The notes beneath the pieces were generated by a model, which worked only from the letters and a program-made list of their open reading frames with translations, was not told where the DNA came from and did not search any database. Position numbers and translations under genes: made by a program. DNA of 37,779 nt from Thermoplasmatales archaeon SW_10_69_26 (GTDB lineage: Archaea > Thermoplasmatota > SW-10-69-26), in contig PXUB01000016.1 of the NCBI GenBank assembly GCA_003009755.1, positions 1 through 37,779 on the forward strand. Direction: 5' to 3'. Positions 16,201 to 37,779 of the stretch are shown here, piece by piece. Each line of letters opens with the position of its first letter. The first letter of the stretch is position 1.

Positions 16201-16283
16201 GCGGGGGTCGCCAAGCGGTCAACGGCGCGAGGCTTAGGACCTCGTCCCATAGGGGTTCGCAGGTTCGAATCCTGTCCCCCGCA
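16201..16283 (+). tRNA. tRNA-Leu (anticodon UAG)
   Basis: An 83-base class II tRNA. Acceptor GCGGGGG (16201-16207) pairs with CCCCCGC (16276-16282), with discriminator A at 16283. The D-stem is GCC/GGC with an AAGCGGTCAAC loop; the anticodon stem CGAGG/CCTCG encloses CTTAGGA (16233-16239), giving anticodon TAG at 16235-16237. A long variable arm (TCCCATAGGGGTTCG) is typical of leucine tRNA, and the T arm is GCAGG-TTCGAAT-CCTGT. CCA is not encoded and no intron is visible. Its 3' end (from GTTCGAAT) is the left arm of an 18-bp inverted repeat that continues downstream. Confidence 0.95.
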
Positions 16284-16314
16284 TCCACAACGCCGAGGGG
16301 GACAGGATTCGAAC
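16263..16314. repeat. Perfect 18-bp inverted repeat made from the tRNA-Leu 3' end
   Basis: GTTCGAATCCTGTCCCCC (16263-16280, inside the tRNA) is exactly the reverse complement of 16297-16314. The loop is the 16 bases GCATCCACAACGCCGA. The T-arm and 3' acceptor strand of the tRNA could therefore pair with the trailer rather than within the tRNA. Confidence 0.85.
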
Positions 16315-16620
16315 GACGTTTGATCGCGAAGGCCGACACCCGTCGAACGGCCTTCGCGAGAGCCCGTCCGAGCCTGCGAGGACGGGCGAAATCCTGTCCC
16401 CCGCATCCACAACGCCGAGGGGGACAGGATGAGAACCCTGGTTCGATCCTGAAGACCGACGAACACCGCCCGGTCTTCAGGAGAGCCCGAACACACGAAC
16501 CGCACCACGTTCGGGCGAAATCCTATCCCCCGCATCCACAACGCCGAGGGGACAGAATGAGAACCCTGGTTCGATCCTGACAACCGACGACACTACCCCG
16601 AGCGACCCCCTGTCCCTCCT
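16268..16620 (+). repeat. Tandem array of three structured repeat units after tRNA-Leu
   Basis: A 40-base hairpin core (12-bp stem ATCCTGTCCCCC / GGGGGACAGGAT) occurs at 16269-16308 and identically at 16391-16430, with a slightly decayed copy at 16520-16558. Between copies lie two further hairpins. Unit 1: 12-bp stem at 16324-16359 and 8-bp stem at 16362-16387. Unit 2: 12-bp stem at 16447-16482 and 8-bp stem at 16485-16516. The third unit keeps the linker (GAGAACCCTGGTTCGATCC, as in unit 2) but loses the later hairpins. Period 122-129 bases. No ORF fits; an RNA, an att-site relic and a DNA-hairpin repeat are all possible. Confidence 0.85.
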
Positions 16621-16712
16621 GCTGCCTCATCCCGCCCCACACCTTTGCCCGGATGGCTCCCTGATGCCCGGCTGACGCGGGAGGATCGGCCTGACCGTCG
16701 GCGGGCGAGCCC

Positions 16713-17384
16713 TAGACTGCCGGCTGTGCTTGGGTTAAGCTCTCGCCGCCCTCAGGCGGTGAAAGCGCGGAGCCGAGACGAAGGTTCGCCCGGATCGAAG
16801 ATCCGGACTCTCGCGAGGATCCGCCCCTGAGGCCGGCCTCGCGTGCAGGCGCCGGTCTGAGGCGGGCAATCTCGTTGTCGCCCTCCGTCGACAACCCACA
16901 GGGGGTTTCCTTCCTCGGGCTCCGCGACCTTGCCTCGCTCATTCGCACGAGCCCTCCGGGCTCGTACTCTCGGCAGACCGTGCCCGGTCTCCCGAGGGTG
17001 CTGACCGTTGGCTCTCAATAGAGGCTGCCTTCTCCCGCTGGTCGAACTGGCGCGATATGAAAACTGCCAACGCCCGAGCTAGAGGAACTGGAACTCAGTC
17101 TCGGAGGGTCCGGGGTCCCGCCAGGTTACGAGTTCTGACGGGAGTCGCATCGGGGGGCAGAGGAGGAAAAGGGCCCTTGTCGTCCGTGACCGGGCGGTCG
17201 AGCTGGTGATCGGCGGCACCGAGCGCCCTCGTCTTTTTCGGTCAACCCGTCTCTCCCGGTTGGCTTGATGGGTTAGATGGACTGGTCACGGTCCGTTGGC
17301 CGCACGAAGCCCGATTGAAAGGCCGCGTTCAGCACCCTCCCGAGACCGGCGCGAGAGCGTAAGCAAAACACGTCCGGCAGTCTA
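16713..17384. mobile_element. 672-bp non-coding element with terminal inverted repeats (copy B)
   Basis: Bounded by TA on both sides with perfect ends TAGACTGCCGG / CCGGCAGTCTA; the next bases inward match both ends of copy A. No transposase or other convincing ORF is present inside. Internal landmarks: GCGGAGCCGAGACGAAGG near 16770 and TCCGCGACCTTGCCTCGCTC at 16921-16940 both have counterparts in copy C. A 21-base stretch at 16984-17004 recurs inverted at 17329-17349 (19 of 21 identical). It is best read as a non-autonomous or eroded element in a gene-poor island. Confidence 0.7.
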
Positions 17385-17408
17385 GGCTGGACCTCTTCGA
17401 TTGCCTTC

Positions 17409-17963
17409 CTACCCGTCTCCGTCCCCGCCGTCGACGATCTCGGGCTTGCCGAGCGTGGTCTGCTCGAGCTCGTCCTTCTCGACCTCCTCCTTGACGCCCA
17501 CGTCGAGATCCTCGCTCCAGTCCCCCGTCTCCTCGGCAGCGCGCTCGATCAGCTTCTGGCGCTGAGCCGCGCTGTCCTCCTGCCAGCCGGTACCGAGAGC
17601 GATCGCGGCGATGATGTCGGCCTGCAGCTGCCCGAGGTACCGGGAGATGATCACGAACAGGCCGGTGAACACGACCGTGATCCCTGTCGTCGCGCGCGCC
17701 AGCCGTTGGGTGAGCTCGCGGACCCCGGCGAGCGGGGGGAGCACGCTGGCGATCCAGGCAGCTGCCGTCACGATGAACCCGATGTTGAGCAGGAGGATGA
17801 CGAACAGGCGGACGCGGACGGCCAAGCGCAGGCTTTCGGCCCGCTGTTCGAGGACCTCCGAGTAGGGGGAGGCGAAGTCCTGCATGTGGTCATCGATCGC
17901 TTCGACGAGGTGCAAATACCCGGTCTTGGCGTGCCAACCCAGCCGGGAGTGGAACGGGAACAT
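17409..17963 (-). CDS. Membrane protein with two transmembrane segments, unknown
   Basis: A 184-residue protein. Two hydrophobic helices lie at about residues 50-75 (RLFVILLLNIGFIVTAAAWI) and 95-115 (TTGITVVFTGLFVIISRYLG). The N-terminal 45 residues (FHSRLGWHAKTGYLHLVEAI) and the acidic C-terminal tail (GVKEEVEKDELEQTT) look cytoplasmic. No family is recognised. ATG 17963 is preferred; a TTG at 17993 would add ten residues. No promoter box lies close upstream. It ends 25 bases from the right end of element B. Confidence 0.65.
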   Translation of the reverse strand: MFPFHSRLGWHAKTGYLHLVEAIDDHMQDFASPYSEVLEQRAESLRLAVRVRLFVILLLNIGFIVTAAAWIASVLPPLAGVRELTQRLARATTGITVVFTGLFVIISRYLGQLQADIIAAIALGTGWQEDSAAQRQKLIERAAEETGDWSEDLDVGVKEEVEKDELEQTTLGKPEIVDGGDGDG

Positions 17964-36615: not shown

Positions 36616-37554
36616 CTATCCGGGCACGGAGGCCGTCAACAGCTCCGAGAGGGAGACGGCCGTGCAGCTCGCGACCGGAACCCCGCACGATCCCTGGCCG
36701 GCCTCGTTCGACGCGTCACCCGTCCCGCTCGCTGCGAGGCAGCCAGCGCCCGGGTCGCCGCAGGAACTCTCGCCGGCCTCGTTCGAGGCGTTCCCCGTGC
36801 CACTAAGGGCCACGCACCCGACACCGAGGTCTCCGCAGGCTTCGTCGCCGGCCTCGTTCGAGGCGTTCCCCGTGCCACTAAGGGCCACGCACCCGGCGAC
36901 GAGGGCTCCGCAGGACGGCGACAGGGACCCCTCGGCGCCGTTCGAGGCGTTCCCCGTGCCACTGAGGGCGAGGCACCCGGCACCCGTGGAGCCGCAGGAT
37001 GCTCCCGTGGATCCACCGGCTCGGTTCGAGGCGTTCCCCGTCCCGCTCGCGGCCACGCAGCCGACACCGGTTCGGCCGCACGACTCGTCGGCGCCCTCGT
37101 TCCGCGCGTGCCCGTCGAGGCTGACGGCCACGCAACCGACACCGAGGCTCCCGCAGGTCACCTGGCCCTCCGAGGCGTCGTTGCTCGCGTTGCAGGTCCC
37201 GCTGACGGCGACGCAGCCAACTCCGACACGCCCACAGCCGACGGAGCCCGCCTCGTTGTCGGCGTCGCCGGTCCCGCTGACGGCCACGCAACCGACCCCC
37301 ACGAAGCCACAACCGCGATCGCCGGCCTCGTTCGAGGCGTTGCCAGTACCGCTCGCGGTCACGCACGCGCTGGGACCAGTGCAGTCCGTGCCTTGAGCGT
37401 CGCCCCGCACGCTGAGACTGGCCACGGTTCCGCACGTGTCGTCCTTGAGGCTCGCCTCCACCGGCTGGCAACCGTCGGCGAGGGCGACGGGAGCGACTCC
37501 CGGGAAGGCGGCGGCGACGAGCAGCACGGTACAGCACACGACGGGTGATTCCAT
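36616..37554 (-). CDS. Secreted Cys-rich repeat protein with N-glycosylation sequons in most repeats
   Basis: A 312-residue protein starting MESPVVCCTVLLVAAAFPGV with a signal peptide ending near ALADG. After a Cys-containing lead-in, about ten repeats of 24-28 residues follow with the consensus CGxxGxGCVAxSGTGNASNEAG. Each repeat has two Cys spaced CGx5C and most carry NAS, an N-glycosylation sequon. The even length, paired Cys and Gly/Ser/Val pattern suggest a disulfide-braced beta-solenoid or stacked-coil fibre. I recognise no known family. Some repeats are identical at the DNA level. The ATG at 37554 begins the signal peptide, with GTTCTTACG near 37588-37596 as a likely promoter. Confidence 0.78.
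   Translation of the reverse strand: MESPVVCCTVLLVAAAFPGVAPVALADGCQPVEASLKDDTCGTVASLSVRGDAQGTDCTGPSACVTASGTGNASNEAGDRGCGFVGVGCVAVSGTGDADNEAGSVGCGRVGVGCVAVSGTCNASNDASEGQVTCGSLGVGCVAVSLDGHARNEGADESCGRTGVGCVAASGTGNASNRAGGSTGASCGSTGAGCLALSGTGNASNGAEGSLSPSCGALVAGCVALSGTGNASNEAGDEACGDLGVGCVALSGTGNASNEAGESSCGDPGAGCLAASGTGDASNEAGQGSCGVPVASCTAVSLSELLTASVPG
36770..36895. repeat. Two perfect 51-bp direct repeats inside the Cys-rich gene
   Basis: Bases 36770-36820 and 36845-36895 are identical, offset by 75 bases (exactly 25 codons, one repeat unit). Other units are similar but diverged. This suggests recent expansion by unequal exchange or slippage without frame loss. Confidence 0.75.
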
Positions 37555-37779
37555 CCGAAACTTCCAGCGATCGAAGGAATCGCGGACGTAAGAACCTGTT
37601 CCCGCCGGGTCGCCGTCCCGTGAGCAATCCACCGAGGTCGTTGACGAACCCAACGGCCCGGAGGAGAACCTCACCACACCCCCGGACCAGCCGACGCGCA
37701 GCTGGCGTCGACACACAAGGCGCGGGGGCCAAGAAGGGTGAAGAACGGGCCCTCGTTGGCAGGAATGGTAGATTCACGT
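37555..37779. other. Upstream region of the Cys-rich gene to the window edge
   Basis: GTTCTTACG on the minus strand (about 37588-37596) is the likely promoter box of the repeat-protein gene. I see no supported gene in the last 180 bases. Confidence 0.35.

Follow-up and report, generated by a model that had tools for sequence, protein, structure and literature searches.

The rtT repeats of Escherichia coli are an old oddity, known behind one tRNA. In this family (RF00391; RttR, b4425; tyrT/tyrV), tandem units lie directly 3′ of the tRNA, each ending with a copy of the tRNA 3′ end (T2) that runs from the T-loop to the mature end and each containing an inverted copy of that end (T′, GGGGAAGGATGAGAA), a small hairpin (P2) with tandem GA, and the sequence GGTTCGA followed by hairpins with GCGAGAGAGCG-like linkers. 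The small RNA RttR/RtT is annotated as “processed from tyrT transcript,” and at the tyrT locus of strain MG1655 its 3′ end falls exactly at the CCA of T2. RtT RNA is reported to contain a tandem-GA motif (PMC7657543). Our searches of the open-access literature turned up no account of RtT-like arrays from archaea or at a large number of tRNAs.

Other described systems also bear comparison with the array reported here. REP/BIME elements with RAYT likewise consist of short imperfect palindromes in intergenic DNA, and rttR has been listed as REP-containing (PMC12306157); the present array, however, carries a tRNA-specific 3′ end, and its genome lacks a Y1 transposase. The tRNA-targeting integrative elements (prophages, ICEs, and genomic islands) share the direct repeat from the T-loop to the mature tRNA end, whereas the array has no integrase, has units of only ~125 bp in tandem, and includes an inverted tRNA-end copy. 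Integron cassette arrays (attC) would be comparable in architecture only, i.e., in their tandem units, hairpin site, recombination-like point, and fixed anchor; in contrast to these, the array has no cargo gene and no known IntI or attC boxes, and its anchor is the T-arm of a tRNA.

The window analyzed, a stretch of 37,779 nucleotides (contig PXUB01000016.1, C14), belongs to the 2.8-Mb genome of Thermoplasmatales archaeon SW_10_69_26 (Thermoplasmatota), whose nearest named protein relative is the Thermoplasmata MAG CSSed11_322R1, ~56% identical. We read the array in this window as an RtT-type tRNA-end array, an archaeal equivalent of the rtT repeats at tRNA-Tyr of E. coli, from which it differs in its archaeal host, in the many tRNA types concerned within one genome, and in its long P3 and P4 stems.

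Anatomy of the array behind tRNA-Leu(UAG)

Two complete units and one truncated unit follow each other in tandem 3′ of the tRNA-Leu(UAG) gene. The unit order is T-X-T′-P2-P3-P4-T2, with a length of ~125 bp. T2 repeats the tRNA 3′ end in direct orientation, beginning in the middle of the T-loop (AATCC) and ending with the discriminator base; T′ repeats the same end in inverted orientation, and the two pair to form an outer stem, P1, that encloses three hairpins. A sequence-only reading of the locus had recognized two units of three hairpins each; both units and their hairpins are real, but the T′/T2 outer stem had been overlooked, as had the third, truncated unit, and each unit has in fact four helices (P1 to P4). 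The features are as follows.

16201..16283, + strand: tRNA-Leu (anticodon UAG), by ARAGORN; Rfam tRNA model, 53.3 bits
16262..16283, + strand: T1, the tRNA 3′ end (GGTTCGAATCCTGTCCCCCGCA), by sequence and T1/T2 identity profile; only the stretch from 16268, in the T-loop, through the discriminator base is duplicated
16284..16296, + strand: spacer X1 (TCCACAACGCCGA), by sequence
16297..16314, + strand: T′1, inverted tRNA 3′ end and P1 5′ strand of unit 1 (GGGGGACAGGATTCGAAC), 18/18 complementary to 16263-16280
16309..16323, + strand: small hairpin P2 of unit 1 (TCGAAC/GTTTGA), by folding
16324..16359, + strand: hairpin P3 of unit 1 (the second stem of the sequence-only reading), by inverted-repeat comparison
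16362..16387, + strand: hairpin P4 of unit 1 (the third stem of that reading), by sequence and folding
16390..16405, + strand: T2, direct tRNA 3′-end copy and P1 3′ strand of unit 1, identical to 16268-16283
16406..16418, + strand: spacer X2, identical to X1
16419..16437, + strand: T′2 (GGGGGACAGGATGAGAACC), of the GGAT-GA-GAACC form, by inverted repeat and motif table
16433..16446, + strand: P2 of unit 2 (GAACC/GGTTC), with flanking GA at 16431-16432 and 16445-16446
16447..16482, + strand: hairpin P3 of unit 2, by inverted repeat
16485..16516, + strand: hairpin P4 of unit 2, by folding
16519..16534, + strand: T3, second tRNA 3′-end copy, with one mismatch (TGT to TAT)
16535..~16600, + strand: decayed, truncated third unit (X3, T′3 GGGGACAGAATGAGAACC, and the start of P3), by direct repeats; a weak model match covers 16547-16644

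The GA pairs flanking P2 of unit 2 constitute the tandem-GA motif also present in E. coli RtT, and the arrangement GGAT-GA-GAACC..GGTTC-GA recurs in unit 2, in other units of the window genome, and in E. coli. In units of this GA type, T′ and the GGTTCGA that follows it form a palindrome with the tandem-GA motif; judging from their letters, P3 and P4 of these units look as if they had been inserted into another copy of the T-arm, within its T-loop (GGTTCGA^TC-P3-GAGAG-P4-GAA^ATCC). Elsewhere in the window, ~0.8 kb between the array and the next ORF (16640-17410) is without a convincing gene, and a repeat ORF on the minus strand (36616-37716; SGTGNASNEAG..CGxxGVGCVAxS-like) probably encodes a secreted or surface protein.

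The layout of the MG1655 tyrT locus matches that of the archaeal units, and a covariance model made from the units of the window genome only (R1) ranked the four E. coli rtT repeats first, at 24 bits each. Conversely, the Rfam RtT model aligned with 16408-16537 over its full length (1-130) and in register, at a score (14.5 bits, E = 5.5) that does not assign the array to RF00391, whose gathering threshold is 45 bits. Three structural traits of RtT loci are found in the window: the units stand in tandem behind a tRNA, each with the 3′ end of that tRNA as its own end; the opening inverted copy pairs with the terminal direct copy; and the tandem-GA motif lies next to P1/P2. The element, put forward in the sequence-only reading as possibly new, is partly known, since its anatomy is already that of the E. 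coli rtT repeats.

Other copies in the genome and in other phyla

Relatives of the array in the window genome were found by DNA search and with R1 and were compared with the list of tRNA genes and their flanks. A copy of the tRNA’s own 3′ end was present downstream of 16 of the 39 tRNA genes examined, compared to 2 of 39 in the upstream control. The carriers include Leu, Gln, Arg, Val, Pro, Met, Ser, Ala, and Glu tRNAs, with tandem arrays of two to three units at Arg, Gln, and Leu tRNAs. Each downstream copy is preceded by hairpins, nearly all have a recognizable T′, and the P1 sequence varies by tRNA, matching the respective host tRNA. All tRNA-linked cases lie close behind the tRNA and on the same strand.

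Related hairpins with GATC/GAGAG/GAATC linkers occur behind different tRNAs and elsewhere in the genome. At a TFB gene (L047 215-430, G000:C22), a second copy of the final 50 nt lies 166 bp downstream (49/50 identical; the single change is silent), and between the two are an inverted copy and two hairpins, i.e., the anatomy of the array at the 3′ end of a protein gene. Multi-hairpin arrays with the same linkers were also seen with no tRNA nearby (L050 and L054; G000:C45 and C38), and one tRNA-Ser (L053 700-1200, G000:C1 ~123.2-123.7 kb) has a similar array at its 5′ side as well, where what is repeated is the initial ~22 nt of the tRNA, read from the opposite strand. The hairpin family is local rather than ubiquitous, since perfect hairpins genome-wide were only about twice as frequent as in shuffled sequence (72 versus 32 in 396 kb).

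At least four phyla, bacterial as well as archaeal, show the same anatomy 3′ of numerous tRNA genes, with examples in other Thermoplasmatota, Halobacteriota, Actinomycetota, and Gammaproteobacteria. Thus, the search behind other tRNA genes that the sequence-only reading had proposed turned up arrays in the window genome and far beyond, and its concern that homologues might not exist elsewhere no longer holds. The covariance-model search, which it had also proposed, was productive in part: R1 recovered relatives in the window genome and placed the E. coli repeats on top, but among 116 relatives it matched the window genome alone because the bodies of the units diverge. A strict motif (GGATGAGAACC..GGTTCG) had no match in 50 other genomes. 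Searches with T/T′ layout patterns succeeded in place of R1. The pattern GTTCRAATCC-N20-50-GGATNNGAAC matched 28 of 293 Thermoplasmatota genomes (reversed control pattern, zero), 25 of 345 Halobacteriota genomes, and 14 of 347 Actinomycetota genomes; the Thermoplasmatota loci share the anatomy and have unrelated hairpins. Among the loci read, the full T-X-T′-hairpin-T2 layout was found at 17 haloarchaeal and 7 actinomycete tRNAs, counts that are not population frequencies, the loci having been chosen by the T′ pattern. T2 was required for counting, and pattern matches that resemble mere tail-to-tail tRNA pairs (e.g., L182) were left out where they had none.

RF00391 itself extends beyond tyrT: of 229 gammaproteobacterial genomes, 53 had matches at E ≤ 0.01, of which 15 exceeded the cut-off, and among the loci read the gene upstream is tRNA-Tyr, tRNA-Ser, tRNA-Gln, or tmRNA. 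The unit at the tmRNA (L266) is of the RtT type and includes a copy of that RNA’s 3′ end. Overall, unit length ranges from ~95 to 340 bp, with no gene inside, and in AT-rich genomes the X spacers behind the tRNA are T-rich and terminator-like. In many units of haloarchaeal loci (L180, L346, L351, and others) the loops contain GCGAAGC or GCGAAAGC, which are known as exceptionally stable DNA mini-hairpins.

Paired changes in the stems

The second stem (P3) reads TCGCGAAGGCCG/CGGCCTTCGCGA in unit 1 (16324-16335/16348-16359) and TCCTGAAGACCG/CGGTCTTCAGGA in unit 2 (16447-16458/16471-16482); the third (P4) reads GCCCGTCC/GGACGGGC (16362-16369/16380-16387) and GCCCGAAC/GTTCGGGC (16485-16492/16509-16516), respectively. 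As the sequence-only reading had noted, these are tandem structured units whose five differing stem pairs all carry compensating changes, with loops that are dissimilar between units. Folding was far more stable than that of dinucleotide shuffles (RNA z = −7.8, DNA z = −8.9). In an alignment of seven units of the window genome, 97.1% of pair cells were standard, compared to 83.7% in shuffles, and there were 31 double-change cells compared to 10.9, a number reached in 0 of 500 shuffles.

Covariation so far in excess of shuffles would be expected of a co-transcribed structured RNA, an RtT-like small RNA cut from the tRNA primary transcript and acting as an sRNA or decoy. P1 would then mimic the acceptor-T minihelix, with tRNase Z and the CCA-adding enzyme shaping the 3′ end. 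The position of every tRNA-linked case, the coincidence of the end of T2 with the mature tRNA end, and the annotation of the E. coli RNA, which ends at the T2 CCA, are all consistent with this. If RNA folding were selected, however, G-U pairs should exceed A-C mismatches, and they do not. In the stems of 110 elements the G·T : A·C ratio was 45:46, compared to 33:3 in the tRNA stems of the carriers (Fisher P = 5e-6); in a first element set the corresponding figures were 35:35 and 39:7 (Fisher P = 1.5e-4). The stems thus covary without the signature of RNA. The window genome alone leans toward G·T (15:7 in the 110-element set and 17:9 in the first set, neither significant), and a local RNA role may exist there. 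An RNA gene is also difficult to reconcile with bodies that are wholly different between families, with the terminator-like T-rich X that follows the tRNA in AT-rich genomes, and with the absence of the elements from a sister genome and their loss in some E. coli strains (see below). We therefore regard an RNA role as unlikely, albeit a live rival. The sequence-only reading had seen in the paired changes the mark of selection on structure and had left the choice between a noncoding RNA array and a DNA element at the tRNA end; selection on RNA structure is not supported, and the second option fits better, in that what we see resembles a hairpin element of DNA more closely than it does a conserved gene for an RNA.

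Proposed gain and loss of units at the T-loop

For the 62 tRNAs that have T2, the identity profile of T1 and the last T copy rises abruptly from low values to about 0.9-1.0 inside the T-loop; the drop follows the discriminator base in archaea and the CCA in gammaproteobacteria. Copies decay with distance, with a mean of 15.3/16 in copy 2 and 13.2/16 in copy 3. Occupancy is patchy. In the only other family member examined (G001), none of 20 tRNAs carried an element, including the orthologous Leu-UAA, whose 3′ end is identical. Two genomes of one genus (G054 and G083) differ in unit numbers, and at one locus (L321) an extra hairpin lies within a T copy. The RtT region varies across 5,426 E. coli genomes, with 0 to 5 units per strain among the 50 entries listed, and in strain Z30 the native flank directly follows both tRNA-Tyr genes, leaving clean empty sites. 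At tyrT/tyrV, unit number was seen to vary by strain from none to at least five (L207 and L334-L336).

In our judgment, the array probably consists of DNA hairpin cassettes that are gained and lost at the T-loop. We infer that the cassettes move or turn over as DNA, by an exchange that would proceed as follows. A cassette would comprise the tRNA 3′ half, from the T-loop to the discriminator base, plus X, T′, and the hairpins, up to the next copy, and units would come and go at a single T-loop point. Every such exchange would restore a whole tRNA because each unit bears the exact tRNA 3′ end, and the termination of the duplicated block at the mature end would have the same explanation; T copies would stay exact because it is the inserted unit that then supplies the functional tRNA end. 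The stems would be kept as DNA palindromes, a single strand probably having to fold for recombination or replication, or alternatively the palindromes would be corrected by template switching. Such upkeep would produce paired changes without G-U intermediates.

The anatomy, tRNA-specific P1, sharp boundaries, spread, patchiness, empty sites, and lack of G-U bias all support the cassette reading. Against it stand the annotation of the E. coli unit as an sRNA, the lean toward G·T in the window genome, and the fact that no recombinase or transposase was found linked to the element; Y1 transposase (PF01797) had no candidates in the window genome and was present in 2 of 18 genomes searched. Moreover, simple deletion between 19-bp repeats that flank a palindrome, rather than site-specific excision, could account for the E. 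coli losses.

The other live rival is a by-product of replication, i.e., fold-back template switching at a palindrome-prone T-arm followed by slippage, with no dedicated element. The direct-inverted-direct order of the T copies (T-X-T′-T) matches the outcome of fold-back switching, the X of the Leu-UAA element resembles the flank behind the last T (CTGACGNACTCGA), stem correction would yield paired changes, and decay is greater in later copies. Yet the breakpoints are constant across different tRNAs and phyla, and related hairpins sharing linkers at different tRNAs and sites are not predicted by random slippage, so that we give this explanation a rather low probability. It is very improbable that the arrays are what is left of an ordinary integrative element, a prophage or an ICE, whose attL and attR would lie at the end of the tRNA. 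Integration classically leaves such a footprint, a tRNA 3′ end duplicated between the T-loop and the mature end, and larger tRNA-end duplications occur in Haloquadratum (PMC3119063), but the units are short, geneless, tandem, and alike across many tRNAs, no integrase lies between the tRNA 3′-end repeats (a spacing of ~125 bp is too short for such a gene), and the 26 pattern matches in IMG/VR viral contigs included none with a tRNA.

Further candidates were rejected. The IMG/VR matches, chance-like and without a tRNA, disposed of a viral origin. Mobilization as REP/RAYT was dismissed on account of the Y1 transposase missing from the window genome and most carriers, and an origin of T2 from reverse-transcribed mature tRNA on account of the archaeal T2, which has no added CCA where the gene has none.

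To return to DNA cassettes at the T-loop, a bolder version, which we consider unlikely, is that RtT-type arrays from both domains make up a single class of mobile DNA cassettes anchored at tRNA T-loops, with a host site-specific recombinase recognizing the T-arm and exchanging the cassettes as single strands in folded form. If true, this would amount to an integron-cassette-like exchange with the tRNA gene as the anchor. The stem mismatches carry a more general message, namely, that strong covariation alone may stem from DNA palindromes and not from functional RNA. The anatomy, with its exact, tRNA-specific boundaries, is shared by numerous tRNAs, one tmRNA, and even a protein gene and extends over two domains and no fewer than four phyla, and this breadth, which includes E. 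coli, makes the origin and upkeep of the repeats testable in laboratory E. coli.
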